The notes: a model not told the origin generated them from the sequence alone. 64,000 nucleotides of DNA from a virus (IMGVR_UViG_3300031851_000004:35271-99270); one strand, 5' to 3'. Shown: positions 37,396-64,000, numbered from the stretch's first letter. Numbers and translations are program-made.

Positions 37396-37689
37396 ATGAA
37401 GAATAAAAAACAAACATATAACAAAGATGGATCTACTAGAAAATCTGGTAGTGGTAGAAAGAGTGGAGCGACTTCCTTTGTTAGGGTCACTTTCGATGAG
37501 TTAAGCGGTTTCATAGGGTCAAAGACTCCTATGTTAGTTAGTAGGGTTTGGTTAGAAAATTTAGGTTTAAATAACTTGGGAGAATCTCAAGACCCCATAT
37601 CAAAACAAAAACCTAAATTAGACTTGACTAAAGAAGATGAGTCTGATAAGATTCTATTTTCACTTAACAAATTCAACGATGAGGAATAA
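37396..37689 (+). CDS. Small basic protein, possible DNA binding, 97 aa
   Basis: Basic N-terminus rich in Lys, Gly, Ser (STRKSGSGRKSGATSFVRV) with an acidic C-terminus. Precedes the RuvB-like ATPase gene by 1 bp, so the two are probably coupled. Unknown function. Confidence 0.6.
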   Translation: MKNKKQTYNKDGSTRKSGSGRKSGATSFVRVTFDELSGFIGSKTPMLVSRVWLENLGLNNLGESQDPISKQKPKLDLTKEDESDKILFSLNKFNDEE

Positions 37690-37690
37690 T

Positions 37691-38620
37691 ATGACAGATC
37701 CATTTAAAAATCTAGTAGGACAAAAAAATGTAAAGAAAAAGCTTAATTTTTATTTAAAAGCTTTTCGTAAAACAAGAATGAATCCATTTCTTGGGTTCTT
37801 TGGAGCAAAAGGGTTAGGCAAGACTGAGTTTGCGAATGCTTATGCTAGAAATTTAACTAATATAGATGGAAGCAAAAGAACCATCATGGAAATTAATTGT
37901 TCTACCATTAAGAATAACGATAGTTTTTTCGATCAAATATTTATTCCTTATATTTTAAATAATGAAGTAACTGTTTTGTTCGATGAAGCTCATGCGTTGC
38001 CAAATGACTTAACAATGGCTTTACTATCCATATTAGACACTAGACACTCTCATCTTAGAGATTTTACTTGGAAGGATACAGTCTTCCCATTTAATTTTAA
38101 ACATCAAAGTTTTATTTTTGCGACTACAGAAAGTGATAAATTGTTTCCTCCATTAAAAGACAGACTAACTTCTGTTGATTTTGATTCTTATTCTCCTAAA
38201 GAATTAGGCGAGATTTTATCATTGTCTATTGAGTGTGATGTAAATAAAGATGTTTTAACTCAACTTAGTAGTGTGGTGAGGGGTAATGCTAGAAATGCGA
38301 TCATGAAAGCTAAAGATATAAATCTTTATATAGCTTCTGAAAATGTTAAAAAATTCACAATGTATCATTATAATAAATTTTGTGAGATATTGGGTGTTTT
38401 ACCTTTTGGAATTAGTTGCACAGAGAAACAAATACTTGAAGTTTTAAAGGAAAAAGGTGCTTGCACTTTGTCTATGCTCGCAGCAAAAACAGGATTGAGC
38501 GCTACATCGTTAAGATGCGATCACGAAAAATATCTTTTAAGACAAAACTTAATGGAGATAGATGTAAAAAGAAAGATAACTCCATTAGGTAGGGAAGTTA
38601 TGAAAAAAGTTCCTGCTTAA
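37691..38620 (+). CDS. RuvB-like AAA+ ATPase
   Basis: Start at ATG 37691, which gives TDPFKNLVGQKNVKKKL, the classical AAA+ N-terminus; an upstream in-frame ATG (37637) lies inside the previous gene. Walker A-like FGAKGLGKTEFA and Walker B VLFDEAHAL are present; sensor 1 IFATTESDKL; a C-terminal winged helix (CTLSMLAAKTGLSATSLRCD). 309 aa, similar to RuvB (about 340). It may act as a branch migration motor or clamp-loader-like factor. RuvA and RuvC partners are not seen here. Confidence 0.8.
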   Translation: MTDPFKNLVGQKNVKKKLNFYLKAFRKTRMNPFLGFFGAKGLGKTEFANAYARNLTNIDGSKRTIMEINCSTIKNNDSFFDQIFIPYILNNEVTVLFDEAHALPNDLTMALLSILDTRHSHLRDFTWKDTVFPFNFKHQSFIFATTESDKLFPPLKDRLTSVDFDSYSPKELGEILSLSIECDVNKDVLTQLSSVVRGNARNAIMKAKDINLYIASENVKKFTMYHYNKFCEILGVLPFGISCTEKQILEVLKEKGACTLSMLAAKTGLSATSLRCDHEKYLLRQNLMEIDVKRKITPLGREVMKKVPA

Positions 38621-38862
38621 TTTTTGTTGTTTAATTTTTCAAATATTTTAATTACATCTTCTCTTCTGTCTTCTAGAAGTCTTTGTGTTTGAATCCACCT
38701 CTCGCAGTCTCTAGCTCCATTTTCAGCTAAAGCGATTTCAATGCGTCTTAATTTTTCAGCGATTCTTTCTATTCTAGCGTTCTCTCTTTTCAAGAAAAAA
38801 GCTACAATAGAAATTGTTCCGCCTAAAATAATAAAAATAATATTAGATAACTCTACTTCCAT
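38617..38862 (-). CDS. Small membrane-anchored coiled-coil protein, minus strand
   Basis: 81 aa if started at the ATG at 38862, which lies exactly 6 nt after a minus-strand TATAAT (38869-38874); another ATG lies at 38877, beyond that box. One membrane segment (IIFIILGGTISIVAFFL), then a charged helix (RIERIAEKLRRIEIALAENG). Convergent with the AAA+ gene with a 4-bp overlap. Confidence 0.65.
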   Translation of the reverse strand: MEVELSNIIFIILGGTISIVAFFLKRENARIERIAEKLRRIEIALAENGARDCERWIQTQRLLEDRREDVIKIFEKLNNKN

Positions 38863-38884
38863 AACTATATTATACACTTTTTTC

Positions 38885-38913
38885 TTGACAACCCTTTGTG
38901 ATTAAAGTATAAT
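38885..38913 (+). promoter_or_regulatory. Promoter of UV endonuclease gene
   Basis: TTGACA (38885-38890), 17 bp, TATAAT (38908-38913), 9 nt to the ATG at 38923. The best consensus match in the window. Confidence 0.75.
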
Positions 38914-38922
38914 TCTACAATT

Positions 38923-39972
38923 ATGACAAATACAATATTAGGCTTAACCTGTATCAGTGAAGAACTTAAAGAAAAAGATAAGGCAAAATATTCTTTTAAA
39001 ACTATGACCCGCAAACGTTTTAATGATTTGTGTAATACAATAGGTAGGAATGAAGCTCTTAGTCAATTATCTGAAAGAATTTTGCATAATGTTGTTGTTA
39101 CTCAATATATTATCAATCATTGTGCTAGGACAAATATTAGGCATTATCGTGTTAGTTCTTCTCTTTTCCCTCTCGTTACCGATGAAAGTTTGGAAATATC
39201 TCTTGAAGACCTCTCTGATTACCCTAGGATTAAAGAAGAGTTAAGGCTTGCGGGTTTAATGGCTTTATCATTTAAAATATCAATAAGCACTCATCCCGAT
39301 CAATTTAACGTTCTCGCCTCTACTAATCAAAAATCCGTAGAAAGAACGATAAAGGAATTAAATTTTCAATCTAGTATATTAGATAAGCTAGGTTTACCCC
39401 AAGATCACACTTCCCCTATAAACATTCATCTCAATTGTGGTGTAGGCACTCCAAAAAAACTAGAGATAGATGCCGAATCTCTTAATAATTTTGTTATATC
39501 AGAAGTTGCAGATAGATTTTATAAAAATTTAATGAGATGTGATCAAGGATTAATAAAACGACTAACATTAGAAAATGAAGATAGGGGTCATTGGAATGTA
39601 GATAATATTTTAAAATTTAGTGAATATTTATTTAATAAATATGATTTAAATATACCTATATGTTATGATAATTTGCATGATAATTGCAATCCATCTGAGG
39701 TTCTTAACATAAAATGGCAAGCTGAAAGATGTGCTTATACATGGGTCAAGCAAGGAAATTTAGATTTAATAGAAGGCTCTCATTTTATAGCTCCTGTTTT
39801 TCATTGGTCTGAGGGTAGGAACGATGGGAGTAATAACCCTCGCGCTCATGGAGATTACTTTAGCTTTAAGAATTATCCTCCAATAATCGCTATTGATCCA
39901 AATAATGAAGCTAAGTGGGAATGCGAAGTGAAAGCTAAAGACCTAGCAATTAGAAAATTGATAAATGATTAA
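38923..39972 (+). CDS. uvsE: UV damage endonuclease (UvdE family)
   Basis: 349 aa, TIM-barrel repair nuclease that nicks 5' to UV photoproducts and some other lesions. Family signatures: LGLTCISEELKEKDKAKYSFKT is broken here by length but opens as usual; YRVSSSLFPL; ISTHPDQFNVL; INIHLNCGVG; LTLENEDRG; ICYDNLHDNC; FHWSEGRND. The metal-binding His and Glu residues are present. It may protect phage genomes exposed to sunlight, which fits an aquatic setting. Confidence 0.9.
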   Translation: MTNTILGLTCISEELKEKDKAKYSFKTMTRKRFNDLCNTIGRNEALSQLSERILHNVVVTQYIINHCARTNIRHYRVSSSLFPLVTDESLEISLEDLSDYPRIKEELRLAGLMALSFKISISTHPDQFNVLASTNQKSVERTIKELNFQSSILDKLGLPQDHTSPINIHLNCGVGTPKKLEIDAESLNNFVISEVADRFYKNLMRCDQGLIKRLTLENEDRGHWNVDNILKFSEYLFNKYDLNIPICYDNLHDNCNPSEVLNIKWQAERCAYTWVKQGNLDLIEGSHFIAPVFHWSEGRNDGSNNPRAHGDYFSFKNYPPIIAIDPNNEAKWECEVKAKDLAIRKLIND

Positions 39973-41750
39973 TGTTTCATCAAACAAATTTTAATTTTAT
40001 TTCTCCACTTGGCTTGGATGAATATAAAAGTAATAATGAATTACCTTTGTTATCAAGAGAAACATATAAATTTAACAAAAGGGTAAAAGATAAGTTAGAG
40101 ATTGATCCCCTACGAGAGGTATTGCTTTTTCATAATCATTTATTTAGCCTTAAAGGTCATGAATATGCAAATAATAAATCAAATATTATTAATAATTTCA
40201 TAAATTGGATAAAATCTAAAAAAAATTTTAATAAAGAAACTTATATATTAGAGCAAATAACTAAAGAAGATTTAAACTCGTATTCCTCTTACCTTACGAG
40301 AAAAAAATTATCTAATCACCTTATCTATATATATTTCTCTGCGGTTAAGAATTTTTTTTACTATTGTTATTCAAATAAACTTATAAGTACAAAAAGTGTA
40401 TTTTTTGAGCAATTTGATTTTTCGGGAGATAGTGTTATTCAGAATGAGTCGGTTGGTATAATATATAAAATATCTAATCAAATAAGATTTGATCCCACAC
40501 ATCCTTTGTACAAATCCCTAAAGCCTTGGGATACCGATTATGTAGGTCAATCCTCGCAACCGCTTGACAAAAGATACCCCGAAGGCATAGAAGAAACACA
40601 TAATAAGTATTTAAGGGAGTCTATTGAAAAGTTTGGACTAGAAAATTTCTCAATAGAGGAAATACAGACCGAAGTAATTTTAAAAGAGTTAAATAGAGAA
40701 GAATCTAAATGGGTGAATCTGAATGATTGTATATACCCTAGAGGTTATAATATAAATATTCCATCGTTTGACGATTGGAAACCTATTTCTCGCAACGAAA
40801 GATGGATAAGAAATATGGAGACAGGTAAAGTTTTTTCAGTAAATAATTTAAAAACTTTTTGTAAAAATCCACATTTTTATGATCAAGGCTTGAGCAAACC
40901 AAAAGATTATAAAATAAATTATACTCAAATGTCAAATTGCTTGACAGGATACATATCACCAACAGACAGACAAAATGGTATAAATCTTCCCCACAAAGTT
41001 TTTGTTGATATATATTGTCCTGCTAGATATACTACATCTGACCTTGATTCTTTTGCAAATTTTAGGTACAAGAAAAGTGTAATTGATTTTTGTGAGACTT
41101 TAAAGTTTCCAATCGAGCTTGTTAACGCAAGACTTGTGGAGGATTTTGTAATTGATAGCCAGGAAGATGTAATTGATATTATTTGCGAAAAAAAGTTTTG
41201 TCGCTTAGGTGAATTTAAAAAATTATTTCAATGTTATGAATCAAATGAAAAATATCCTTTGGCTTTTCCCATCGCAAGAATAAATGAAAACTACTTTGTC
41301 CACAAAGATAATTTCAAAAATTATTATGCTTGGTGGATGTATGATCTTGAAGGAAAAGAAATTTTACTAAAAATAAATCATCCCAAAATAGGTGATATAG
41401 AATTTTATTGGAATGACTTGGGTAAATTAGCATTAGAATTAAATAAAAACGAAGTGTTTAAGGGGACTAATATACCACAAAATAAAGATATAATTCACTC
41501 AACAATAGGCAGAAGTCTTAGGGGCATAGTCACAGGAAGGAATAGAACTGCTTATGGGATTAAATTCAATCCTTGTGGAGATCATTTCAAACTAGACATA
41601 AAAAGATTTCTTAAAAATAAATATGTTGAAAAAGTTTTAAATCAAGGTTATGATGTCTTATTCCCCATCAACAAATACAAAAAAGAAGAACAATTAATTA
41701 TTAAAAAAATATTTAAATTATTAGAATGTGAATCATATTTGCGAGAGTAG
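39972..41750 (+). CDS. Fusion of integrase SAM-like domain and GIY-YIG nuclease
   Basis: 592 aa. Residues 68-140 (NIINNFINWIKSKKNFNKET ... LSNHLIYIYFSAVKNFFYYCY) look like the core-binding (SAM-like) N-domain of tyrosine recombinases, but no recombinase catalytic domain follows. Instead residues 162-260 form a GIY-YIG nuclease: GIIYKI, DYVGQSSQPLDKRY with Arg201, and a Glu in LNREESKWV. The remaining 330 residues are unassigned. The stop codon (41748-41750) lies inside the tRNA-Arg gene, so the gene ends on the tRNA. Probably a mobile homing-type gene. Confidence 0.7.
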   Translation: MFHQTNFNFISPLGLDEYKSNNELPLLSRETYKFNKRVKDKLEIDPLREVLLFHNHLFSLKGHEYANNKSNIINNFINWIKSKKNFNKETYILEQITKEDLNSYSSYLTRKKLSNHLIYIYFSAVKNFFYYCYSNKLISTKSVFFEQFDFSGDSVIQNESVGIIYKISNQIRFDPTHPLYKSLKPWDTDYVGQSSQPLDKRYPEGIEETHNKYLRESIEKFGLENFSIEEIQTEVILKELNREESKWVNLNDCIYPRGYNINIPSFDDWKPISRNERWIRNMETGKVFSVNNLKTFCKNPHFYDQGLSKPKDYKINYTQMSNCLTGYISPTDRQNGINLPHKVFVDIYCPARYTTSDLDSFANFRYKKSVIDFCETLKFPIELVNARLVEDFVIDSQEDVIDIICEKKFCRLGEFKKLFQCYESNEKYPLAFPIARINENYFVHKDNFKNYYAWWMYDLEGKEILLKINHPKIGDIEFYWNDLGKLALELNKNEVFKGTNIPQNKDIIHSTIGRSLRGIVTGRNRTAYGIKFNPCGDHFKLDIKRFLKNKYVEKVLNQGYDVLFPINKYKKEEQLIIKKIFKLLECESYLRE

Positions 41751-41817
41751 CTCAGTTGGATAGAGCATCTGCCTTCTAAGCAGAATGTCGTGAGTTCAAG
41801 TCTCACCTCTCGCGCCA
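41741..41817 (+). tRNA. tRNA-Arg (anticodon TCT)
   Basis: Full cloverleaf: acceptor GCGAGAG/CTCTCGC, D arm GCTC-AGTTGGATA-GAGC, anticodon stem TCTGC/GCAGA with loop CTTCTAA (anticodon TCT), T arm GTGAG-TTCAAGT-CTCAC, and encoded CCA. Reads AGA, which is heavily used in this AT-rich DNA. Its first 10 nt overlap the 3' end of the GIY-YIG fusion gene. Confidence 0.95.
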
Positions 41818-41824
41818 TTTTTAA

Positions 41825-41853
41825 TTGAATAAACGTTAGCTACAATTTATTAT
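41825..41853 (+). promoter_or_regulatory. Candidate promoter, leaderless type
   Basis: TTGAAT (41825-41830), 17 bp, TATTAT (41848-41853), 5 nt to the ATG at 41859 or 8 nt to the ATG at 41862. Confidence 0.5.
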
Positions 41854-41858
41854 ATATA

Positions 41859-42053
41859 ATGATGAAAAAAATATGGTTAATATGGGCGCGCACCTTAGAT
41901 CACCGAGTAGGCAGAACTGATGATGATGAACCCGACATTCCAATCCTCTCCTTAAAAGATGCACAAATAAGTTTGTTAATAAGAACTATTATAATCTTAA
42001 TAAATATTATAACTTGTGGTTTTATAATAGCGAACATAATTAAAAATTGGTAA
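41859..42053 (+). CDS. Small membrane protein, 64 aa
   Basis: C-terminal membrane segment (IRTIIILINIITCGFIIANI) preceded by a polar part (ARTLDHRVGRTDDDEPDIP). Separated by 1 bp from the cupin gene. Function unknown. Confidence 0.6.
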   Translation: MMKKIWLIWARTLDHRVGRTDDDEPDIPILSLKDAQISLLIRTIIILINIITCGFIIANIIKNW

Positions 42054-42054
42054 C

Positions 42055-42417
42055 ATGAATACTAAAACTAAATTTGTAGAAAAAAGATGGGGGCATGAAA
42101 TATGGTTCGCAAACAATGAAGAAGAAAATTATTGTGGTAAAGAATTATTTATTAAGGAAGAATGTCATACATCTATGCACTTTCACCTTAAAAAGCATGA
42201 AGTGTTTTATATATTAGAGGGTCAGCTTGCACTTGAATTAATTTGCACAAAAATCGGTCAATCAACCCAAATCATCTTAAATAAAGGCGATAAATACGAA
42301 ATAGAGCAAGGTCAACCCCATCAACTTATTGCTCACAATGGATCAGTAAGACTAATTGAAGCAAGCACATTTCATAAAAATTCAGACTCATATAGAGTCT
42401 ATGACGAATTAAGGTAA
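42055..42417 (+). CDS. Cupin-domain protein
   Basis: 120 aa, single beta-barrel cupin like the metal-binding domain of mannose-6-phosphate isomerase / mannose-1-phosphate guanylyltransferase. Motif 1: CHTSMHFHLKKHEVFYILEG with the two His and Glu ligands; motif 2: GDKYEIEQGQPHQLIA. The opening VEKRWGHEIWFAN is typical of that enzyme class. Sugar isomerase or sensor roles are possible. Confidence 0.75.
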   Translation: MNTKTKFVEKRWGHEIWFANNEEENYCGKELFIKEECHTSMHFHLKKHEVFYILEGQLALELICTKIGQSTQIILNKGDKYEIEQGQPHQLIAHNGSVRLIEASTFHKNSDSYRVYDELR

Positions 42418-42641
42418 TGAGTGATAGCTTTAATAAATTTAAAAAAACTATAGAAGAAGAAATAATATTTTTAGAAGATGAAAAAATTTGTGAATATGAC
42501 CCTAGATATGAAAAAAATATGAATTTATTACCTTTAAGCAAGTGGGGCAGGGCAATCTCAGAGCAAGAAGCAAAGATTGATGTCTTAAAAAAAATATTAA
42601 TTAAATTAAAAGAAAATGAGGAAAAAAAATCTGCCCGATAG
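42417..42641 (+). CDS. Hypothetical protein, 74 aa
   Basis: Helical charged protein (FKKTIEEEIIFLEDEKICEYD) starting in a TAATG overlap with the cupin gene and overlapping the next gene by 26 bp. No function recognised. Confidence 0.6.
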   Translation: MSDSFNKFKKTIEEEIIFLEDEKICEYDPRYEKNMNLLPLSKWGRAISEQEAKIDVLKKILIKLKENEEKKSAR

Positions 42642-43005
42642 TTATGTTCCAAATGCTTATGCCTTACCCTACGGAAGTAATTTATCTGCCCCCGTAATTA
42701 AACCCGATCATAGTCTTGGTGGATGGAAAGTTGGTGCAGTACACTCTGCAAATAAACATTATGAAGATCGATTTAATAAATTAAAAAAAGAATTAGAAGA
42801 ATTAGTGGAAGATGTTAAGTGGAACGAAATAATATTTAATGCAGAAATGAGAATGAAACCTGTCATTGGAAATATATATCACCTTTACAAAAAAGGCAAT
42901 CAAAAGAATTTCATGAGCTTGTTTGCTCCGAATGAATGTTCTTGGGGGGAAACTCATATCGGGAGCTTTAGGTTAAATTACGATAATCGTTGGGAAAAGA
43001 CTTGA
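42616..43005 (+). CDS. DUF2452-like protein
   Basis: 129 aa. LPYGSNLSAPVIKPDHSLGGWK, then ANKHYEDRFNKLKKELEELV, WNEIIFNAEMRMKPVIG, IYHLYKK and a final SFRLNYDNRWEK. This is the pattern of the DUF2452 family, widespread but of unknown function. The following promoter begins at its stop codon. Confidence 0.7.
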   Translation: MRKKNLPDSYVPNAYALPYGSNLSAPVIKPDHSLGGWKVGAVHSANKHYEDRFNKLKKELEELVEDVKWNEIIFNAEMRMKPVIGNIYHLYKKGNQKNFMSLFAPNECSWGETHIGSFRLNYDNRWEKT

Positions 43006-43030
43006 CCGCCTTCTAGTCTTGTGCTACTAT
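43002..43030 (+). promoter_or_regulatory. Promoter of macro-domain gene, leaderless
   Basis: TTGACC (43002-43007), 17 bp ending TGC, TACTAT (43025-43030), 6 nt to the ATG at 43037. It decides the start: an in-frame ATG at 43019 lies inside the spacer. Confidence 0.7.
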
Positions 43031-43036
43031 GTAGCG

Positions 43037-43522
43037 ATGAATATAGAAATAATTGATGGCAACTTGTTAAAGATGCACTTTCATGGGTTGGATTACATTG
43101 CTCATTCTTGCAACACAAATAATGTAATGGGCGCAGGTATCGCTCTTGATATAAAACATACTTACCCCCAAGCATATAGTGCCGATTGCCATGCGATGAT
43201 GGAAGGTGAAAATGTTTTGGGTAATTATAGTTTTGCATGGACTGATGCTACTCAAAGCAAAGGCATCTATAATATGTATACTCAAGATAAGGTTGGGGGC
43301 GAAAGAGCAGTTAATTATGAAGCATTTTATGTTGCACTAGAAAATGTCGCAGATCACATTGAATGGCAAAGTAAGCATGATGAAGAAGAAAAGGTTTTAG
43401 GTTTACCCTACGGCATCTCTTGTGGACTTGCGGGAGGCAGTTGGGGTGTTATTTTTTCTATGATAAATAATATTTTAGTTGACAGAAGTTTTAAAACCTA
43501 TATGATTAGATACCATGAATAG
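43037..43522 (+). CDS. Macro-domain protein (ADP-ribose binding)
   Basis: 161 aa. MNIEIIDGNLLKM, then DYIAHSCNTNNVMGAGIALD, then YPQAY, and LPYGISCGLAGGSWGVIFSMI. This is the macro domain in its Poa1p/ALC1-like form, binding or hydrolysing ADP-ribose derivatives (N24-type Asn of the 'CN' motif present). In a phage it could reverse ADP-ribosylation or remove NAD-derived signals used in host defence; that is inference. Confidence 0.8.
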   Translation: MNIEIIDGNLLKMHFHGLDYIAHSCNTNNVMGAGIALDIKHTYPQAYSADCHAMMEGENVLGNYSFAWTDATQSKGIYNMYTQDKVGGERAVNYEAFYVALENVADHIEWQSKHDEEEKVLGLPYGISCGLAGGSWGVIFSMINNILVDRSFKTYMIRYHE

Positions 43523-43766
43523 ATTTGAACTAGAAGACGCGATGAGTGACTTGCACCAAATAGGTGAAGACATAGAAACAATAATATATGCTATTGGAGA
43601 CTCTCCTGTCAAGCATACCGAAGACCAACTATTAAATATGTTGATCGGAATGAAACAACTACATAATACTCGCTATCAAAAAATGTGGAATATATTTGAG
43701 GAATTAATTAAACATAAAATTATATCAGATGAAAATATCAGTTTTCCATCAAACAACAAAAGTTAA
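43515..43766 (+). CDS. Hypothetical protein, 83 aa
   Basis: Helical protein (FELEDAMSDLHQIGEDIETIIYAIG) with 8-bp overlap with the macro-domain gene, so co-translated. Not recognised. Confidence 0.6.
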   Translation: MNRFELEDAMSDLHQIGEDIETIIYAIGDSPVKHTEDQLLNMLIGMKQLHNTRYQKMWNIFEELIKHKIISDENISFPSNNKS

Positions 43767-43771
43767 ATAAT

Positions 43772-44032
43772 ATGGATATATCTACCATTGAAATGAGGAT
43801 GTATAATCCCGAAGCTAAAGTTCAATTAATAGATTCAGAAACTCCGTTTGTGTTAAAAAACTCAAATTCTCTTATGGTTGAGGGGGTTTACGATTCATCT
43901 TTTAAGCTCACCCCTTGGGGTGCTGATATGGTTATTTCTGTTACTGACCCATTTGTGATATTAGAGAATGGGGAAAGGCTTATTGCGATAGAATTGTATG
44001 CAAAGCATAGGGACTTTAAATTAATTAGATAA
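43772..44032 (+). CDS. Small protein of the 'PWGA...TDP' family, 86 aa
   Basis: Contains LTPWGADMVISVTDPFVILENGERLIAI. The same layout, LNPWGANVIVKITDPNQVDKYG, occurs in the protein at 45044, so these are paralogues. Beta-rich, function unknown. Confidence 0.6.
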   Translation: MDISTIEMRMYNPEAKVQLIDSETPFVLKNSNSLMVEGVYDSSFKLTPWGADMVISVTDPFVILENGERLIAIELYAKHRDFKLIR

Positions 44033-44061
44033 TAAATAGTTATTATTTTTTTATTTATTTC

Positions 44062-44090
44062 TTGACATACTTATTAATTTTTGGTAATAT
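44062..44090 (+). promoter_or_regulatory. Promoter, leaderless type
   Basis: TTGACA (44062-44067), 17 bp ending TTGG, TAATAT (44085-44090), 7 nt to the ATG at 44098. Confidence 0.75.
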
Positions 44091-44097
44091 TTTAATT

Positions 44098-44676
44098 ATG
44101 AGCGGAGAAGGACACACAACAAGTTTCAAAAGAACGACACAGACTAGCAAGTCTAACGAACAACTCTTAGAGGAGTTTAAACGTTTAGTTTATTCTAGCA
44201 AAAAGGTTATGTCTCATATGAAATGGTACGGCAAGGAGCATAGTGTTGAACTTGTAGAGCATGGAGATGAAGAGCAACCAAAATGGAGGCAAGAAAGTGT
44301 TGCAATTAAAGATACTTTTGAATTTTATATTAGCACTTATGAATCTTGGGGTAAGGATTCAAATTATTACGAATGCCATAAAACAGAGGGAAGTTTCGTT
44401 TCTCTTGCTAGGGAATTCGCACATAATAATAAATTAATGTATTTCCCCGATGGTTTTCCTGCTGAATGGATTGAGCAAGAAATAATTGATGGAGAAAAAA
44501 ATTGGAATCATTTTATTGTAAAACCCGATGATAAAAACATTGACAGAATTTGCGAAGTTTGGTATGATTATGGAATACAAAAGTTAAAAGATGATTCCAA
44601 AGAACTTTGGTATCAAGTTAGAGATAAAATCAAGCAATTAATGGAGAATAGATATGAATGTGAATGCACAAGATAG
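44098..44676 (+). CDS. Hypothetical protein, 192 aa
   Basis: The promoter places the start at ATG 44098 (MSGEGHTTSFKRTTQTSK). A longer frame from 44062 would begin within the -35 box and is rejected. Acidic with several Trp (AEWIEQEIIDGEKNWNHFIV). Not recognised. Confidence 0.65.
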   Translation: MSGEGHTTSFKRTTQTSKSNEQLLEEFKRLVYSSKKVMSHMKWYGKEHSVELVEHGDEEQPKWRQESVAIKDTFEFYISTYESWGKDSNYYECHKTEGSFVSLAREFAHNNKLMYFPDGFPAEWIEQEIIDGEKNWNHFIVKPDDKNIDRICEVWYDYGIQKLKDDSKELWYQVRDKIKQLMENRYECECTR

Positions 44677-44860
44677 TAAAATGAATATAGTTCCTAGTAA
44701 TGATCAAGGAGAAGATTTTGAAATGACTAGTCACTTTGCTTGGCTTAAAGTCGGAGATTACTCTCTTCAGATCGTAGACGATGCTGATGAGTTAAGGGTA
44801 AGAGTTTACCCTTATGGAGATGAGCTTGAAGAAATTGACACCTTATACATTGCTAAATGA
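44654..44860 (+). CDS. Hypothetical acidic protein, 68 aa
   Basis: 23-bp overlap with the preceding gene and 4-bp overlap with the next. FAWLKVGDYSLQIVDDADEL suggests a small beta domain. Unknown. Confidence 0.55.
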   Translation: MNVNAQDSKMNIVPSNDQGEDFEMTSHFAWLKVGDYSLQIVDDADELRVRVYPYGDELEEIDTLYIAK

Positions 44861-45042
44861 GCTTTATATCTTACATTGCAGTTGATTGGAATAAAGCGAA
44901 TCCAATTTTACCACAAAGACCAATTCTAATGACGAAGACAGAAGCATTTAAATTAAATAAACAATTGCTTTTAAATGGTGAAAAGAAAAGATATATCAGA
45001 GAAGAACTAGGTTTAAGTTTAAACAATACAAATAAAAAATAA
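44857..45042 (+). CDS. Hypothetical basic protein, 61 aa
   Basis: ATGA overlap with the previous gene. A C-terminal helix-turn-helix-like stretch (EAFKLNKQLLLNGEKKRYIR followed by EELGLSL) may be DNA binding. Confidence 0.55.
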   Translation: MSFISYIAVDWNKANPILPQRPILMTKTEAFKLNKQLLLNGEKKRYIREELGLSLNNTNKK

Positions 45043-45043
45043 T

Positions 45044-45322: not shown

Positions 45323-45332
45323 GTATTGAGTT

Positions 45333-55478: not shown

Positions 55479-55484
55479 GCTATT

Positions 55485-55921: not shown

Positions 55922-55925
55922 TTAC

Positions 55926-55954: not shown

Positions 55955-55960
55955 ACGATT

Positions 55961-56161: not shown

Positions 56162-56174
56162 AAAGCGAAAAGTT

Positions 56175-56840: not shown

Positions 56841-57187
56841 TTCGATGCTTTATAGATAAATATTCATTACTATGTGCTAGTGATGAGAGTAGTATTAAAA
56901 ATGCAATAGATAAAAAAATGAAAGAAACAAATAAAGAAGATGATTCGCTAGAAGAAACTACATTAAAAGGAATTATTAGTTCTTGCGAGAATTTGCTTGA
57001 CGATCTTGAGGAAGGTGCTAATATCGAAGAGAAAGATATGCAAGATTTAGTTTATGCAGATAATGTTTTACTAGACATTCAACAAAGGCTTGCATCAAGT
57101 TTTTCTCCAACTAATATTGAATGTGGACATTACCCTGTAATGATTGATAGAGTTTATTCGGATGACGAACATGGAAATAGTTTATGA
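56837..57187 (+). CDS. Hypothetical acidic protein, 116 aa
   Basis: Helical, acidic (KETNKEDDSLEETTLKGIIS, LDDLEEGANIEEKDMQDL). ATGA overlaps on both sides. Confidence 0.6.
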   Translation: MIRCFIDKYSLLCASDESSIKNAIDKKMKETNKEDDSLEETTLKGIISSCENLLDDLEEGANIEEKDMQDLVYADNVLLDIQQRLASSFSPTNIECGHYPVMIDRVYSDDEHGNSL

Positions 57188-57369
57188 CAAATGAAGATAT
57201 AGAATTTATAATTAAACAAACTTTAATTGAGGCGTCTTTGCATCACGAAGAAGATAGTAGGCAAAGGTATTATAATGGAATACTTGAATTAGTTAATCAG
57301 TATAAATCTCTCCAACATATGATGAGGCAGATAATGGATGCTAGGTATAATAGCAGACCAAACGAGTAA
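57184..57369 (+). CDS. Hypothetical protein, 61 aa
   Basis: Helical (EDIEFIIKQTLIEASLHHEE). ATGA overlap with the previous gene. Confidence 0.6.
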   Translation: MTNEDIEFIIKQTLIEASLHHEEDSRQRYYNGILELVNQYKSLQHMMRQIMDARYNSRPNE

Positions 57370-57381
57370 AAAAAGATTCAC

Positions 57382-57591
57382 GTGAAATATCATATTTCTC
57401 ACAAAAAAAATAGAAACGAAGAATTTATAGTCTTTACATCTAAATTAAAAATGTTAGAGTATTTAAATGAGAACAAAAGTAAATTAAACAAACTTGAAAA
57501 TGTTTATCTCCATTTTGATCAAATTAAAATTTCATTAAGTTCATCATCATGGAGAATAAAAAATAAAAAAAAGATTGACAAACAAAATTAG
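57382..57591 (+). CDS. Hypothetical basic protein, 69 aa, GTG start
   Basis: GTG at 57382. Basic (YHISHKKNRNEEFIVFTSKL) with many Lys. Its 3' end overlaps the rIIA promoter -35. Confidence 0.55.
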   Translation: MKYHISHKKNRNEEFIVFTSKLKMLEYLNENKSKLNKLENVYLHFDQIKISLSSSSWRIKNKKKIDKQN

Positions 57592-57603
57592 TTATAGTAA
57601 GGT
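57575..57603 (+). promoter_or_regulatory. Promoter of rIIA gene, with leader
   Basis: TTGACA (57575-57580), 17 bp, TAAGGT (57598-57603). The mRNA would carry about 41 nt of leader including GAAAGC (57639-57644) 6 nt before the ATG at 57651. Confidence 0.65.
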
Positions 57604-57650
57604 ATGGGCATAGTTTAAATCTTATCACATAAAAAAAAGAAAGCGAAAAA

Positions 57651-59981
57651 ATGATTATCACAAAAGAAAAAAGTAAAGAAGTAGTACAGAGTCACGATTT
57701 TGAATCTGTAAATTGCACAATAGATGCGGAAGATATGAGGTATGTTGCATCTCTACTTCGCAACAACTATTCTAACACTCGTCTTGCAGTTGTTAGAGAG
57801 ATTACCGCAAATGCACTTGATGCAAATGCAGAAGCAAATGCTTCTCGTCCTATCGAAGTAAAGTTGCCAACCAACATGAATCCAACTTTTGCAGTTCGTG
57901 ATTTCGGTGGGGGTCTTAGCCAAGAAGATGTGTTTGGTCTTTACTCAAAGTATGGCAAGTCAACCAAGAGAGAGTCAAACAATTATATCGGCGCTTTCGG
58001 TATCGGTAAGTTTGCTCCATTGTCTTATGGTGAAAACTTTACCTGTGTCTCTTATCATGGTGGAGTAAAAAAGACTTACAACGTTTTCGTCAATGACGAT
58101 GATGATACCAAGATTGCAATGATTGGTGAAGCAGAACCAACTAACGAACCAACAGGTTTATCTATCGAAGTTGCAGTATCTGATTCAGATGTATCAGAGT
58201 TTAAAGAAATTGTACAGAAGTTTTTCGAGTTCTTTTCTGACGAAGAAATGCCAAAATTCATTGGTGCTGAAGATGATTTCATTGCTAAGAGAGAGAGAAT
58301 CTTAGAAAGCGATAATGATGATTGGTTCTTTGTTAAAGAGAGTGATAGTTCCAAGTATGGTTACAGACATAGTAGCAATCGTTCTCATGTTCTCATGGGT
58401 AGAGTAAAGTACCCTATTGATTCTGATGCTATTAATTTAGTTAATTTCGTTGAAGACGAAAAGCTCAGAGATATTTGCAGAAACCTTTTACAACAAGATA
58501 ATTTTTATCTTAGAGTTCCATTGGGTGCAGTAAAGTTGCATCATAGTAGAGAGTCGTTGGAGTATAACAAATCCACTCAGAAAACTATTGCAAAGTATTT
58601 AGTTGTTGCATCTAAAGGTGTTCAAGAGATTGCCAAGAGAAAACTCGCAGACTCAACTGATTTGTTTGATGCTAAAATGAATTATGCAAAAGTTGTTAAT
58701 GCTATGCCATATAATATGAGAAGTATCTTTGAAAATTCTTTTCAATGGAATGGAATTGAAATTAATTCATTTTATTTCAATCGCAAGCATGATTATACTG
58801 ATAGTTTGATTATTACTCAAACTGATAAAAATGGAGATGTTGATGCAAGGGATGGATACAAAGTTCAATCTTGCAAAGTAAATAGAGTACATTGCGACAA
58901 AGGTGTTTTGTTTGCAATTCAAGATATAGAATCTGCTCATGGCAATAATCTTCGTGCTAGAACATTGTTCGATAAAGATGATAGTCTCAATACCATCTAT
59001 TTCATTAATCCAATTACTGATGGTGCGCAAGAGTACATGAAGGATGAATGGCATTTCGATCAAGTCGATGCTAGTCATATTGTTCATACATCAGAAGTAG
59101 AAAAGCAAAAGCCAATCAAGAGAGGTATTCGTCAAGCAAATGGCAATAGTCGCGCTAATATCCCTTTGTTTGTATTAAAGACTAACAAGGGTTATGCTAG
59201 TCGCATGGCAGACTTTTGGGATAATTTTCAAGAGCAAATCAATGATGTCGATGACGTATCAGAAATTGATGGTTCTGTCAATGGTAAATTAGTTTATGTT
59301 CCAATTAGAAATTATAATGTATCGGGAGATGATTATGATATTGAATTGGATGCTTTGTATCGCAAAATGAGTCAGATTCGTATACAAGCAGAAGATAATA
59401 CTGAAAACAAAAATGTCATGTTGTTTGGTGTTAGAGTCGGAGATGTAAAGAAATTAGATAATGATCTTTGGATTTCTTACAACGATTTCTATACTCAATA
59501 CTGCAAGGATAAAGTTTTAGCAGATGTAGAAAATGCAACTCTTGCACATCAAATGTTTGTTTTTCAATCAGAGGATGTTCCAAGTAAATTATCCAATTAC
59601 GGATATACTTTAAATAGATTGTTTACTAATTCTAGTTTTAAATTAGATGGTTTAGATTCAGATCACTTGGTGAATAAAGTTGCGACTGATTGGAATACTC
59701 TTGAAGATGGTGGAATAGATCACATTAGAGTTGCAATGATGCACTTGTACAAAAAGGAAAAGCAATGGGTAGAGAAAACTTTTCCTATCGCAAAGTCTAG
59801 CGCAAAAGCCTTTACTGATAATGTAGACTCTCTTGTAGAGAAGTACCCTCTTATGGTTTACATTTCTCAATCATGCAACTCATGGGGGAGTTTAAATGCA
59901 AAGGATTCGGGTGGACTTCATCTCTTGGATGAAACTGAAAAGTACATTCAAATAGTTGATAATCAAAGAGTTGGGGAGTGA
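57651..59981 (+). CDS. rIIA: rIIA-like protein with GHKL ATPase domain
   Basis: 776 aa, close to T4 rIIA (725). The N-terminal GHKL ATPase domain shows the N-box VREITANALDANAEA (Glu50, Asn54, Asp57), the G1 box DFGGGLS (84-90) and the G2 box GAFGIGKFAPL (114-124). In T4, rIIA with rIIB prevents early lysis and lambda Rex exclusion and is membrane-associated; that function is known for T4 and only inferred here. The downstream rIIB gene supports the call. Leadered, probably strong early expression. Confidence 0.88.
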   Translation: MIITKEKSKEVVQSHDFESVNCTIDAEDMRYVASLLRNNYSNTRLAVVREITANALDANAEANASRPIEVKLPTNMNPTFAVRDFGGGLSQEDVFGLYSKYGKSTKRESNNYIGAFGIGKFAPLSYGENFTCVSYHGGVKKTYNVFVNDDDDTKIAMIGEAEPTNEPTGLSIEVAVSDSDVSEFKEIVQKFFEFFSDEEMPKFIGAEDDFIAKRERILESDNDDWFFVKESDSSKYGYRHSSNRSHVLMGRVKYPIDSDAINLVNFVEDEKLRDICRNLLQQDNFYLRVPLGAVKLHHSRESLEYNKSTQKTIAKYLVVASKGVQEIAKRKLADSTDLFDAKMNYAKVVNAMPYNMRSIFENSFQWNGIEINSFYFNRKHDYTDSLIITQTDKNGDVDARDGYKVQSCKVNRVHCDKGVLFAIQDIESAHGNNLRARTLFDKDDSLNTIYFINPITDGAQEYMKDEWHFDQVDASHIVHTSEVEKQKPIKRGIRQANGNSRANIPLFVLKTNKGYASRMADFWDNFQEQINDVDDVSEIDGSVNGKLVYVPIRNYNVSGDDYDIELDALYRKMSQIRIQAEDNTENKNVMLFGVRVGDVKKLDNDLWISYNDFYTQYCKDKVLADVENATLAHQMFVFQSEDVPSKLSNYGYTLNRLFTNSSFKLDGLDSDHLVNKVATDWNTLEDGGIDHIRVAMMHLYKKEKQWVEKTFPIAKSSAKAFTDNVDSLVEKYPLMVYISQSCNSWGSLNAKDSGGLHLLDETEKYIQIVDNQRVGE

Positions 59982-60014
59982 TAATCCCAACTCTAAATTT
60001 TATAAAAAAAATAC

Positions 60015-60043
60015 TTGACGAAAACAATTAATCCTGTTATAGT
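60015..60043 (+). promoter_or_regulatory. Promoter of rIIB gene, with leader
   Basis: TTGACG (60015-60020), 17 bp ending TGT, TATAGT (60038-60043). Leader of about 44 nt containing GAAAGC (60080-60085) 8 nt before the ATG at 60094. Confidence 0.65.
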
Positions 60044-60093
60044 TATATTATTGAAACGAAAAAATAAGTTAAAAAAATAGAAAGCAAAAAATT

Positions 60094-61266
60094 ATGAATA
60101 AAGTGCCATATATGTATAGCGAAGATGTAATAACCATTTTTTGGGAAGGCAAGCCTTATAGTCTTCGCAAAGATCATCCAAATTTTCAGAATGCAAAGAA
60201 TGCAATTCTTGAAGGTGATTATGAATCTCTTGGGGGGTTAATTGACATTACAAAATCAGTTGAAGATTTTATCGAAGGTGACATTGAAGTTCGTGAAGAA
60301 GTAGTTTACTACAAGAATCATCGTCTTCATGGTGTTGTTGTTGAAAAGTTATTGGAAATGCTTCGTTCGGGCATGAAAGATAATGCTCCTCTAGTTAATT
60401 TTATTACTAGGTTGCAATCCAACCCATCTGCTAATTCTGTAAACGAATTGTATAGTTTCTTGAGTTACAAATCATTACCAACCACTCCCGAAGGTAAAGT
60501 ATTGGGTTATAAAGGTGTTAAGGGTGACTTTTATTCTAGCACAGGCAATGCTGATACTATTGTAGTTCAAGGCGAGGTAAACGATTCGCATCAAATTCTT
60601 AATGAAGTTGGTGCAACGATTGAAGTTGCGCGTCGTTGTGTAGACGATAATAAGGATAATCATTGTTCTTATGGTCTTCATGTCGGTTCTTACGATTATG
60701 CAAATAGTTGGGCAGGTTCAGATGGTCGATTGTTGGTTGTAGAGTTTGATCCCGAAGATGCAGTATCAGTTCCGACTGATTGCAATTTTCAAAAATTAAG
60801 AGTCTCGAAGTACAAGGTAGTGAATGACATTACTGATGATCGCAAAGAGTACGATAAGCCTGTCTACGAGGCAAATAAGCCTATCTATGATGAAGTCGAA
60901 GATGATTATGATGATGATGATGATTATGTAGATGATGCAGAGGAATCTGATCTTGCACAAGATGAATTGGATTTAAATGTTAATTCGTTTGACCATCCAT
61001 ATGAAGAAGAATTCAACATGAGAGGTGTTCAATCTGAAGGTGATGAAGTCGATGAATATCTTCGTAATTATGTTGATACAAAACATTCAATGGGTCTTTA
61101 TCCTAAAGTTTCTTCAATTGCGGGTTGCAGATTTTGTAAAGATCATAGCATCAAATGCTCAGAAATAGTCGTAAGATTTAAAGATATGTGCAAAGATGGT
61201 TGGAATTATTGGGTGAAAGATGGTAATGGTGATAGTAATGCAGTAATCTTTGACCAACCTTTTTAA
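60094..61266 (+). CDS. rIIB: rIIB-like protein with acidic insert
   Basis: 390 aa (T4 rIIB is 312). It begins with a beta-rich domain (YMYSEDVITIFWEGKPYSLR) and then FLSYKSLPTTPEGKVLGYKG, the segment that characterises rIIB-type proteins (L-P-x-T-x-x-G-x-x-x-x-Y-K). CSYGLHVGSYDYANSWAGSD is also typical. After about residue 265 it has an Asp/Glu-rich stretch (VEDDYDDDDDYVDDAEESD) and a unique C-terminal domain with Cys residues (GCRFCKDHSIKC). Partner of rIIA. Confidence 0.85.
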   Translation: MNKVPYMYSEDVITIFWEGKPYSLRKDHPNFQNAKNAILEGDYESLGGLIDITKSVEDFIEGDIEVREEVVYYKNHRLHGVVVEKLLEMLRSGMKDNAPLVNFITRLQSNPSANSVNELYSFLSYKSLPTTPEGKVLGYKGVKGDFYSSTGNADTIVVQGEVNDSHQILNEVGATIEVARRCVDDNKDNHCSYGLHVGSYDYANSWAGSDGRLLVVEFDPEDAVSVPTDCNFQKLRVSKYKVVNDITDDRKEYDKPVYEANKPIYDEVEDDYDDDDDYVDDAEESDLAQDELDLNVNSFDHPYEEEFNMRGVQSEGDEVDEYLRNYVDTKHSMGLYPKVSSIAGCRFCKDHSIKCSEIVVRFKDMCKDGWNYWVKDGNGDSNAVIFDQPF

Positions 61267-61270
61267 GATA

Positions 61271-61519
61271 ATGAAAGATACAAAATTACTAAAAATTGTA
61301 AAGAAAACAGATGATGTCGAAGCAGATGCTATATGGGCAATTCTTAAATATAAAAACATTGGAATACTCAGAAAGGTAATGTGCATTTGTAAGGTGTTAG
61401 ATATAGACACACAAGATGTTTTAGCAACTTTACCTAAAGATGAAAATGGGAGATACTTGGATAAGCCAACTCGAAAGTTAATCCATGATGCCTTAATAAT
61501 AAGACAAGCAAAAAAATGA
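61271..61519 (+). CDS. Hypothetical protein, 82 aa
   Basis: Start at ATG 61271; an ATG at 61250 would overlap rIIB. Contains VEADAIWAILKYKNIGILRK. ATGA overlap with the next gene. Confidence 0.6.
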   Translation: MKDTKLLKIVKKTDDVEADAIWAILKYKNIGILRKVMCICKVLDIDTQDVLATLPKDENGRYLDKPTRKLIHDALIIRQAKK

Positions 61520-61728
61520 ACCAAACAAGACTATTAGAAAAAAACTTATATTCACTAATACAATTGGAAGTGGAACTAAAACAACAATACGATGACGAGG
61601 AATTATTTAATGAAATTAATTTTTATAAAAAAAGTTTATCATTTTTCTTAGAATCAAAAGATTACAAGAGATCATTATATGAAAGTAACAAACTAGTTTC
61701 TTTTATTGTCTCATACTTAACAGATTAA
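61516..61728 (+). CDS. Hypothetical helical protein, 70 aa
   Basis: Helical, charged (LEKNLYSLIQLEVELKQQYD). Two bases before the next start. Confidence 0.6.
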   Translation: MNQTRLLEKNLYSLIQLEVELKQQYDDEELFNEINFYKKSLSFFLESKDYKRSLYESNKLVSFIVSYLTD

Positions 61729-61730
61729 TT

Positions 61731-61796
61731 ATGGAATTAATATTAATTATGTTGGCGGTAGGTTATTTAGCATACATGATGGATAAAGATATTTAA
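61731..61796 (+). CDS. Tiny membrane peptide, 21 aa
   Basis: MELILIMLAVGYLAYMMDKD then I: one membrane segment. It sits 2 bp after the previous stop. Support is position and the hydrophobic pattern only. Confidence 0.45.
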   Translation: MELILIMLAVGYLAYMMDKDI

Positions 61797-61814
61797 AAAA
61801 ATTTTAAAAAATAG

Positions 61815-61843
61815 TTGACAAGCGAAAAAAAAATTGGTAAGGT
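61815..61843 (+). promoter_or_regulatory. Promoter of protease gene, leaderless
   Basis: TTGACA (61815-61820), 17 bp ending TTGG, TAAGGT (61838-61843), 6 nt to the ATG at 61850. Confidence 0.75.
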
Positions 61844-61849
61844 TGTTTC

Positions 61850-62356
61850 ATGGACAAAAATTATGCAGGATTCTTAGTTATTAGTAATTTATCTAAACAT
61901 GGATTACTTGAACATGGGTGGAAATTCAGATGGCACAATAAAAAAGTTGCTCTAGGGACTTGCAGTTACAATAGGAAATTGATTTATCTAGCAGAATGGT
62001 ATGTTAAGCTTAATGACAAAGATGAAGTCATGGATACCATTTTGCATGAGATTGCTCATGCTCTAGCTTATCATCGTCATGGAAGCGCAGGTCGTGGACA
62101 TGGTAGATTATGGAAGTCTGTTTGCAGAGAAATAGGAGCAAAGCCCGAAAGGTGCAGTAAGGATAAATTAAATAAACCAAAAAATCATCATAAATATGTT
62201 GACAAGTGTTGCGGAACAGAGTATAAAAGACATAGATTAAGAAAGAATGCTAGATATTCTTGCCCAAAATGCCATGTCGTTTTATACAAAGGAGAGAAAG
62301 CGAAAATGGCAGATCGTTCTGCGAAAGAATTATTAGATAGTATAATGAGTTCTTGA
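61850..62356 (+). CDS. SprT-like zinc metalloprotease
   Basis: 168 aa. Zinc motif TILHEIAHALAYHR (His66, Glu67, His70) and third ligand GRGHGRLWKSVCRE (His84), then a C-terminal zinc ribbon (Cys120/121, YSCPKCHVVLY). This is the full SprT/Spartan layout; eukaryotic members digest DNA-protein crosslinks. In a phage it might remove protein roadblocks from DNA; inference. The next promoter begins at its stop codon. Confidence 0.88.
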   Translation: MDKNYAGFLVISNLSKHGLLEHGWKFRWHNKKVALGTCSYNRKLIYLAEWYVKLNDKDEVMDTILHEIAHALAYHRHGSAGRGHGRLWKSVCREIGAKPERCSKDKLNKPKNHHKYVDKCCGTEYKRHRLRKNARYSCPKCHVVLYKGEKAKMADRSAKELLDSIMSS

Positions 62357-62381
62357 CAAGTTAAACAAATTAAAGTAAGGT
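62353..62381 (+). promoter_or_regulatory. Promoter, leaderless
   Basis: TTGACA (62353-62358), 17 bp, TAAGGT (62376-62381), 6 nt to the ATG at 62388. Confidence 0.75.
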
Positions 62382-62387
62382 TGCGAA

Positions 62388-62825
62388 ATGGAAATTGAAA
62401 AAGAGTTTGAATTAGATGAGTTTGAGTTTGATAGTAAGCAGAAATACATGGGTGTTGTGCCTGTTAGAAAGTATTATGCTAGTTTACAAGGTGATGCTCA
62501 ATGGAGTGTAGAAAACGATTCTTTTGATTATGCGGGAACACATTGCACTTGGGGTCAAAGCGGAACACATTATTTGCCCGACTATGCAAACATTGATGAT
62601 TTTTCTTTAGATGAAGTTCATGTATTTTTTGAAATTTATGATGGAGAAATAGGAGCATGGTTTCAATCAGAGAGAAAGTTTATTTGGAAGCACAAAAAGG
62701 ATAGAGCATTCATAAAAAGATTTGAATCAGATTATAGAGAAGAAATTATGCAAATGCTTCAAGATCAAGAAGATGAGTATGAGTCAGTAATTGAATCATT
62801 ACCAACAAAAGCAGATTACGTTTAA
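62388..62825 (+). CDS. Hypothetical acidic protein, 145 aa
   Basis: Acidic N-terminus (EIEKEFELDEFEFDSKQKYM), then aromatic-rich core (WSVENDSFDYAGTHCTWGQS). Not recognised. Single-gene unit with its own promoter. Confidence 0.6.
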   Translation: MEIEKEFELDEFEFDSKQKYMGVVPVRKYYASLQGDAQWSVENDSFDYAGTHCTWGQSGTHYLPDYANIDDFSLDEVHVFFEIYDGEIGAWFQSERKFIWKHKKDRAFIKRFESDYREEIMQMLQDQEDEYESVIESLPTKADYV

Positions 62826-62841
62826 TTTTTTTAAAAAAATG

Positions 62842-62870
62842 TTGACATAGAGTAAAAAAAGGTTTATTGT
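62842..62870 (+). promoter_or_regulatory. Promoter with leader and Shine-Dalgarno
   Basis: TTGACA (62842-62847), 17 bp, TATTGT (62865-62870), leader of about 40 nt with AAAGGAG about 10 nt before the ATG at 62917. Confidence 0.6.
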
Positions 62871-62916
62871 ATCGACATATTATTAAAACACGTTTATAAA
62901 AGGAGAAAAAATCGAC

Positions 62917-63243
62917 ATGAAAACATTAAGATCAGACGAGGTAAATCAAAAAGCAAATGGAACTTATTATATAGATTGGACAACTACAAGTTATTTTAAT
63001 TTAATTAATTCGTTTGGATTGCCAACTTATGGCAAATCTGCTGACAACAAGGTTCTATGCGAATGGGTTCTTGAATCTGACAATGGATCAATCGCTACTA
63101 TTTATGATTATAAATCAGATACAAACGATCCCGAATTCGTAACTCGTTGGCACTTAGGAGGTAACGAACATTCTTATGATTTCATTCAAGAAATTAAAGA
63201 AAAAATTAGAAAAAGTATTGACGCTCGTAATCTTGTATGCTAA
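62917..63243 (+). CDS. Hypothetical protein, 108 aa
   Basis: YYIDWTTTSYFNLINSFGLP then YGKSADNKVLCEWVLESDNG and EFVTRWHLGGNEHSYDFIQE. This pattern is that of a conserved phage family without known function. Leadered and with an AGGAG, so probably well expressed. Confidence 0.65.
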   Translation: MKTLRSDEVNQKANGTYYIDWTTTSYFNLINSFGLPTYGKSADNKVLCEWVLESDNGSIATIYDYKSDTNDPEFVTRWHLGGNEHSYDFIQEIKEKIRKSIDARNLVC

Positions 63244-63252
63244 GGTGTCGAT

Positions 63253-63483
63253 ATGAATTACGAAACAGAACCAATTACCTTTCAAGTTCCATCAAATGGT
63301 GGATATAATTATAGATTTAATGAATGTGTAGATCAAATTGCACAATTAATTGATCGTTATTTTGATACTCATGTAGAAGATGTAGAAAGAATTAATAATT
63401 TAGTTGACCAAGAAGTTGTTGATGCAATGAGAAGGCAAGAGAAAGAAAACGAATTAGATAATGTAAATGGGGGAAGTAAATAA
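63253..63483 (+). CDS. Hypothetical protein, 76 aa
   Basis: YETEPITFQVPSNGGYNYRF then helical, acidic. Overlaps the next ATG by one base (TAATG). Confidence 0.6.
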   Translation: MNYETEPITFQVPSNGGYNYRFNECVDQIAQLIDRYFDTHVEDVERINNLVDQEVVDAMRRQEKENELDNVNGGSK

Positions 63484-63710
63484 TGAATGTAAGCGAAGTT
63501 AAAGAATTAATACAAGAAGCGAGAGATAAATTTGTTATGGAGGAAGTAAATGAATCTCTTCCATATAATTCTAATGTTGAAGATATTATAATTAAAGCAT
63601 TAGAAATCAAAGGATATGGTTTTGATGGGGGTGGATATGACTTCCAAAACAAAAAACGTGATTTATTCTTTGTCGCAGAGAATGGCGAATGTCTTAAAAT
63701 AACAATTTAA
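63483..63710 (+). CDS. Hypothetical protein, 75 aa
   Basis: NVSEVKELIQEARDKFVMEE then VEDIIIKALEIKGYGFDGGG. Not recognised. Confidence 0.6.
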   Translation: MNVSEVKELIQEARDKFVMEEVNESLPYNSNVEDIIIKALEIKGYGFDGGGYDFQNKKRDLFFVAENGECLKITI

Positions 63711-63714
63711 AATA

Positions 63715-63894
63715 ATGAGACATACAATTCAAATACATAAGGATAATGATTATCCACAACACGATAAGATTTTAGTTCCTGTTCTTTTTTCCTTGACAGA
63801 TGATGGTAAGAGAGTTTATGATGAACAACTTATGCACGATATACTTAAAGATCATATTGAATCAATAGAAAGACATGAAAGAAATTACGAATAA
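63715..63894 (+). CDS. Small protein, 59 aa
   Basis: ATG at 63715, stop 63892-63894. RHTIQIHKDNDYPQHDKILV then PVLFSLTDDGKRVYDEQ. Followed immediately by a promoter. Confidence 0.55.
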   Translation: MRHTIQIHKDNDYPQHDKILVPVLFSLTDDGKRVYDEQLMHDILKDHIESIERHERNYE

Positions 63895-63897
63895 GTG

Positions 63898-63926
63898 TTG
63901 ACATATAAATTTAATCATGTTATTGT
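63898..63926 (+). promoter_or_regulatory. Promoter with leader
   Basis: TTGACA (63898-63903), 17 bp, TATTGT (63921-63926); leader of about 44 nt with AAAGGA and AGCGAA before the ATG at 63977. Confidence 0.6.
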
Positions 63927-63976
63927 TAATTATTATCAAAAAGAATTATTAATCTAAAAAAAAAGGAAATAGCGAA

Positions 63977-64000
63977 ATGAGTAAAGCTATTAGATCAACT
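63977..64000 (+). CDS. Start of a gene cut by the right window edge
   Basis: Only the first eight codons (MSKAIRST) are inside the window. Promoter and AAGGA-like site upstream support the start. Confidence 0.5.

Follow-up and report, generated by a model that had tools for sequence, protein, structure and literature searches.

The stretch of DNA analyzed here (the window, 64,000 nucleotides) comprises positions 35271-99270 of the 99,270-bp viral contig IMGVR_UViG_3300031851_000004 and forms the right end of that contig. The parent clade consists of large, uncultured, mostly marine phages with genomes of approximately 180-211 kb that carry Pol III-alpha and rIIAB; no cultured close relative with a known host was found in the collection searched. 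Our subject is the sector of small genes in the second part of the window, from which the word CCAG/CTGG and many other restriction-type words are missing. The genes of this sector have a median length of about 90 aa (vs about 200 aa outside), lie nearly all on one strand, and have a slightly lower GC content than the rest. The most conserved sector members are rIIA (57651-59981, plus strand; phrog_612, E 1.9e-90, HATPase_c_3), rIIB (60094-61266, plus strand; phrog_609, E 9.9e-62), which occurs 2 kb downstream in 15 of 15 relatives, and a 221-aa protein (56175-56840, plus strand) encoded within ~8 kb of rIIA in the same 15 relatives. The latter has a confident predicted structure (predicted local distance difference test score, pLDDT, 88.6), with no family match and no PDB or viral fold match at E<=0.001.

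An exact count found 211 occurrences of CCAG/CTGG at window positions 1-37445 and two at 37446-64000. Within 37451-64000 these two compare with 59.4 expected under a second-order Markov (Markov-2) model, and the Poisson probability of the depletion in contig 75-99.3 kb is ~1e-21. The frequency of CCAG is normal in the left 35 kb of the contig, so the depletion is limited to its right end. The original prediction had placed the only two sites after ~37.45 kb at 41159 and 49058 and had counted 15 in the first 2.5 kb; both counts are reproduced exactly, and CCAA, CCAT, CCAC, CTGA and CTGC are indeed still frequent in the depleted part. The residual CCAG (41159-41162) lies in a homing-endonuclease-like open reading frame (ORF) shared by only one of 15 relatives, and the residual CTGG (49058-49061) in an ORF common to the relative G013 only; their location in little-conserved ORFs would fit a recent arrival. 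The proposed shift in synonymous choice was also recovered: before G, proline is encoded by CCA in no case and by CCC in 26 inside the sector, vs 92 and 8 outside. Both complementary forms were said to be missing, as expected for selection on DNA, and on the coding strand of 46 loci the observed/expected ratios (O/E) of CCAG and CTGG are 0.10 and 0.12, respectively. This equal depletion rules out avoidance at the RNA level. Outside the sector, at window positions 8302-8476 within an ORF encoding a repetitive peptide (7231-8769), CCAG is repeated every 12 bp or multiples of 6.

Two parts of the original prediction had to be revised. The loss is not specific to CCAG/CTGG, which rank among the most depleted tetramers: GGCC is likewise absent from the CCAG-poor part of the window (0 vs 24 expected), and dozens of further restriction-type words are missing from the sector. 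Moreover, the edge near 37.45 kb is not a step, since sites thin out from ~30 kb along a slope.

The comparison was extended to the rest of the contig and to relatives gathered via rIIA (50 loci). The pooled sector comprises 46 non-redundant copies (571 kb), whereas 16 genomes were profiled in alignment on rIIA, 17 were scanned for gene presence, and 15 relatives entered the neighborhood comparison. Expected word counts were derived from Markov-2 or local Markov models, and those for gene families from codon resampling. The depletion recurs throughout, and not for CCAG alone: all 16 profiled genomes and 46 sector copies have a single region centered on rIIA/rIIB without CCAG and GGCC, which usually also lacks CCGG, ACGT, CGCG, GGWCC, GCNGC, CASTG, and most GC-containing 6-bp palindromes. 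Pooled over the 46 loci, the observed and expected numbers are 2/310 for GGCC, 16/185 for CCGG, 131/1331 for CCAG, 109/750 for ACGT, and 116/417 for CGCG. Among the 5-bp words they are 1/147 (GGWCC), 5/216 (GCWGC), 18/255 (CASTG), 53/450 (ACWGT), and 35/194 (CGWCG), and among the 6-bp words 0/89 (ACATGT), 0/79 (GCATGC), 0/61 (GTGCAC), 1/111 (CTGCAG), and 4/133 (CCATGG). Outside the sector in the fetched genomes, the same words mostly have an O/E of 0.6-1.1.

We used 6-mers free of any shorter missing word to characterize this spectrum. Inside the sector, palindromic 6-mers have a median O/E of 0.16, with 30 of 46 below 0.3; outside it, the median is 0.96. The 1557 6-mers with two or three mismatched symmetric pairs have a median of 1.00 inside, just four of them having an O/E below 0.3. 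The ten rarest non-palindromic 6-mers (O/E <0.1) are all one symmetric pair away from a palindrome, and most of them fit GGYRCC, CYCGRG, GRGCYC, GGNNCC, RCATGY, GWGCWC, RGATCY or GCNNGC, which we take to be degenerate sites of Type II enzymes. The purged words are a restriction-site spectrum. Two other biases were seen: in the core of the 46 loci, CAGC is more strongly depleted than its complement on the coding strand (0.33 vs 0.74 for GCTG), unlike most other words, and CTTA/TAAG is under-represented clade-wide both inside (0.67) and outside (0.76) the depleted region.

Aligned on rIIA, the 16 profiled genomes show a V-shaped trough, in which the O/E of avoided words falls from ~0.95 outside to ~0.1 at rIIA/rIIB over ~20-25 kb and then rises again. 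Each arm is ~20-25 kb long, the purged stretch measures 30-50 kb, and the minimum lies around rIIA in every relative. The avoided-word set was picked from the pooled sector data itself; a stronger test is therefore provided by 56 GC-containing 6-bp palindromes not chosen from the data, which follow the same course in the 16 genomes (0.90 to 0.20 to 0.90). Control words with shuffled letters are flat at 0.87-1.03. In the window, the left slope (30001-44700) carries 8.7 avoided-word sites per kb at 30-37.4 kb and 3.2 at 37.4-44.7 kb, the O/E declining from 0.95 to 0.13. The left part and center of the trough form the purged core (44701-64000), with 1.6 sites per kb vs 17.7 in 1-30000, a single CCAG/CTGG, and a local O/E of mostly 0.05-0.25. 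The right arm of this phage's trough lies beyond the contig end. Across the clade, early promoters are frequent in the right arm, although its purge is only partial (O/E 0.5-0.7); a sharp right edge occurs in some genomes only (e.g. at +4.2 kb in G020 and +7.7 kb in G027) and is followed by a half-purged arm.

Early genes change their order within the region, which provides a natural experiment: for nine gene families represented in the core as well as outside the trough, the observed/expected site numbers are 146/148.6 outside, 284/671 on the slopes, and 21/125 in the core. Members of the same families thus have an O/E of 0.98 outside the trough and 17% of the expected sites in the core. Position, not gene content, decides site loss. 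The trough is also not a general trait of rIIA-bearing phages, as the 50 kb around rIIA of Ruegeria phage V10 have none. Genome-wide site depletion was not observed in the clade (outside O/E near 0.95), CCGG alone being lost genome-wide in some members. This word is absent from the entire 99-kb contig, so its absence from the sector is a separate effect. There is also no CCGG outside the trough in G013 (118 kb) and G015 (153 kb); altogether the absence is genome-wide in G000, G013, G015 and G026, and CCGG is present outside the trough in G016, G017 and G021. The loss of CCGG is a second, genome-wide and lineage-dependent avoidance.

The purged set varies among lineages. GGCC is missing from all but one of the 46 loci (L070 has two copies), and only four or five do not show the strong depletion of CCAG seen in the others (L055, L060 and L065 keep the word). 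ACGT is missing from most loci and kept in the group of the window phage, and GATC is lost in only about six. Such switching by lineage makes a generic structural cause unlikely, whereas a changing set of host enzymes would produce it. We know of no Type II enzyme whose site is exactly CCAG or CCTGA, both asymmetric words; their loss would predict either enzymes not yet described or several overlapping ones.

The purged sector overlaps with a cluster of host-type early promoters. About 25 candidate sites of the form (C)TTGACA-N16-18-TAnnnT lie on the plus strand between 43001 and 63926 of the window. CTTGAC is the top enriched hexamer in the intergenic DNA of the sector (37 vs 1.2 expected); TTGACA comes next, along with -10 elements at the correct spacing. 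On the plus strand, TTGACA promoters reach 0.88 per kb in the 5 kb upstream of rIIA vs ~0.02-0.07 per kb outside. Judged by these motifs, the coding strand has a more than ten-fold excess of predicted sigma-70-type promoters, as would be characteristic of a first-step-transfer (FST) region of the phage T5 type. Since the promoters are sigma-70-like and peak beside rIIA, the sector appears to be the part of the genome open to immediate transcription by host RNA polymerase.

The FST DNA of T5 had been named as a parallel in the original prediction, and the comparison is right in kind. In the T5 record, the FST region (1-10219) lies within the terminal repeat and is annotated as entering the host cell first. 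Using the same code, we obtained an O/E for 6-bp palindromes of 0.45-0.53 in the first 10 kb of T5 vs a mean of ~0.7 elsewhere, a level that is not unique to this region, since a few other 5-kb windows have 0.46-0.58. No EcoRI, EcoRV, HindIII, BamHI or PstI site occurs in the T5 FST region, and the O/E of our avoided-word set is 0.83 there vs ~0.93 elsewhere. The pre-early region of the T5-like phage Bas29 has no EcoRI sites (PMC13250531). The FST region of T5 (Demerecviridae, Markadamsvirinae) and the clade sector are alike in being early, palindrome-poor and read, in the sector putatively, by host sigma-70 RNA polymerase, and in both cases sites missing from the early region are present elsewhere. 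The effect in T5 has the same sign and is weaker, being small and 10 kb long, whereas that in the clade is approximately ten-fold, extends over 30-50 kb, is graded on both sides, and is found clade-wide. T7-like phages, in which EcoRI and EcoRV sites are nearly absent genome-wide (PMC8594841), resemble the clade in having lost Type II sites to restriction pressure, whereas the purge described here is confined to one sector. The PGC_A marine jumbo phages (PMC9123017) resemble the clade in large size, mostly marine habitat and a PF07733-type polymerase, a likeness only; the text of that paper on these phages does not contain the word "restriction". No report of a broad purge restricted to one sector was found in the literature searched, which covers few subscription papers. 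T5 is a precedent in principle, but what appears to be new is how broad, strong and graded the purge is and that it is conserved across the clade.

That Type II sites are broadly lost from one location and near-normal in number elsewhere implies regular exposure to the enzymes at that location only. We consider it probable that, when infection begins, host restriction enzymes encounter the sector first and in isolation. Exposure most likely follows the order of entry, with the leading end or ends of the virion DNA in the sector; a T5-like entry order is the simplest reason for exposure of the sector alone. Host enzymes would meet this DNA unprotected, and the remaining genome would stay uncut because it is exposed later or already shielded by then. 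Selection would strip nearly every Type II cut site met by the lineage, mostly at synonymous positions and in proportion to the earliness of exposure, and early genes may disarm restriction before the remaining DNA arrives. Two slopes would result from ends that are spread around the packaging start, as in a headful series, or from entry with either end in front. Ejection of lambda DNA by either end in vitro is reported in PMC10287942. Of the earlier proposal that the sector enters first or is exposed early, as in T5, the escape from restriction thus stands in kind, and first entry is a likely inference. Its further element, a host enzyme recognizing CCAG, is not borne out, since avoidance in the sector extends to most Type II words, with a set that differs by lineage.

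Several observations weigh against exposure by order of entry. The slope is two-sided, whereas entry by a single end predicts a one-sided cliff. No anti-restriction gene was recognized among the scanned sector proteins, and tblastn with eight T5 FST proteins, including A1 and A2, gave nothing significant. Contig ends are concentrated near rIIA (21 within 5 kb vs 8.3 expected) at scattered positions, and poor assembly of a variable region explains this cluster equally well; the contig ends of G013 overlap by 470 bp at only 87% identity. A bolder form of the favored reading, which we regard as possible though doubtful, is that the genome becomes accessible outwards from rIIA/rIIB in both directions, so that the graded purge would act as a clock of exposure and the missing words would record the enzymes of the natural hosts. 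We know of no phage with outward two-way delivery or shielding from a fixed locus.

A different account, which we hold to be unlikely, has the whole genome entering at once; co-injected proteins, base modification or a compartment would shield the DNA outside the sector, leaving only the early-transcribed locus naked to host RNA polymerase. If shielding grew with distance, it would account for the symmetric V and its match with host-type promoters, and the weak avoidance of palindromes outside (O/E 0.8-0.95) is as expected of shielded DNA. The promoter-rich right arm, however, is only partly purged, and base modification would cover the sector too. Genes for nucleotide-sugar epimerase, aminotransferase and glycosyltransferase are present in the contig at 5.7-33.8 kb (L019, L020) and in the window at 17420-19330, and count in favor of shielding; they may serve a glycan or a DNA-modifying sugar pathway. 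Against it, none of the 17 scanned genomes encodes a thymidylate-synthase family protein (PF00303), QueC, or an N6/N4 or D12 methylase. Hypermodified bases of the T4/SPO1 type are therefore unlikely given the lack of PF00303 matches, and no QueC match points to a 7-deazaguanine-type modification. The original prediction had assigned the protection of the remaining genome to the phage C5-cytosine methyltransferase (29731-30792, plus strand; PF00145, E 1.3e-45), which lies outside the core. This enzyme is not conserved in the clade, and since it is present in only 6 of 17 genomes, with the trough in all those profiled, it cannot be the general reason; shielding by it is further unsupported because methylated virion DNA would be methylated everywhere.

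Cuts might instead occur anywhere, with distant ones mended by ligation or recombination and those within ~25 kb of the early core being lethal, as host exonucleases would degrade the DNA from the break onwards and reach the core ahead of early protein synthesis. The genome encodes a UvsX-like recombinase, and the slope of 20-25 kb is within the range of RecBCD-type processivity. We nevertheless judge this improbable, because one enzyme with a 4-bp site would find roughly a hundred targets outside the sector (e.g. 116 GGCC in 153 kb of G015), giving more breaks than could be mended. Still less credit is due to selection by one host enzyme specific for CCAG: the word is among the most depleted tetramers, but dozens of others are equally missing from the same region, and some lineages keep CCAG while losing other words. 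A bias of the small early genes in composition, codon usage or mutation could be suspected from the surplus of small genes and the slightly reduced GC content of the sector; local Markov expectations, codon resampling, the unchanged level of the control words and the comparison of gene families across positions all contradict such a bias and leave it practically no probability.

Further genes were noted in and around the sector. On the slope lie a gene for a clamp-loader/RuvB-like AAA ATPase (37637-38620, plus strand), found 35 to 4 kb upstream of rIIA in relatives, and one for a UvdE-like UV endonuclease (38923-39972, plus strand; PF03851, E 5e-31), whose distance from rIIA varies between genomes. 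Early genes include one with a weak macro-domain-like Pfam match (43019-43522, phrog_335) and one for a small protein that looks AbrB-like by eye (49755-50048). A full-length tmRNA gene (22453-22873, Rfam E 6.4e-52) encodes an odd tag peptide of 32 residues. The only match of rIIB in the genome collection is a contig (L208, PBIO01000012.1) binned in a Halobacteriovorax metagenome-assembled genome, which also has a tmRNA copy that is 85% identical. This contig is a weak host lead and is likewise purged around rIIB (O/E 0.06-0.22).

If the favored reading is correct, sequence alone would suffice to locate, to within a few kb, which part of an uncultured phage genome is exposed early, and the words missing there would reveal the enzymes of its hosts. 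This would provide a direct route to the order of DNA entry in phages that nobody has grown, would extend the single textbook case of T5 to a widespread phage clade, and would demonstrate the strength of restriction selection in nature. The genes of the core, including that for the conserved 221-aa protein, would then be the first candidates for broad anti-restriction functions.

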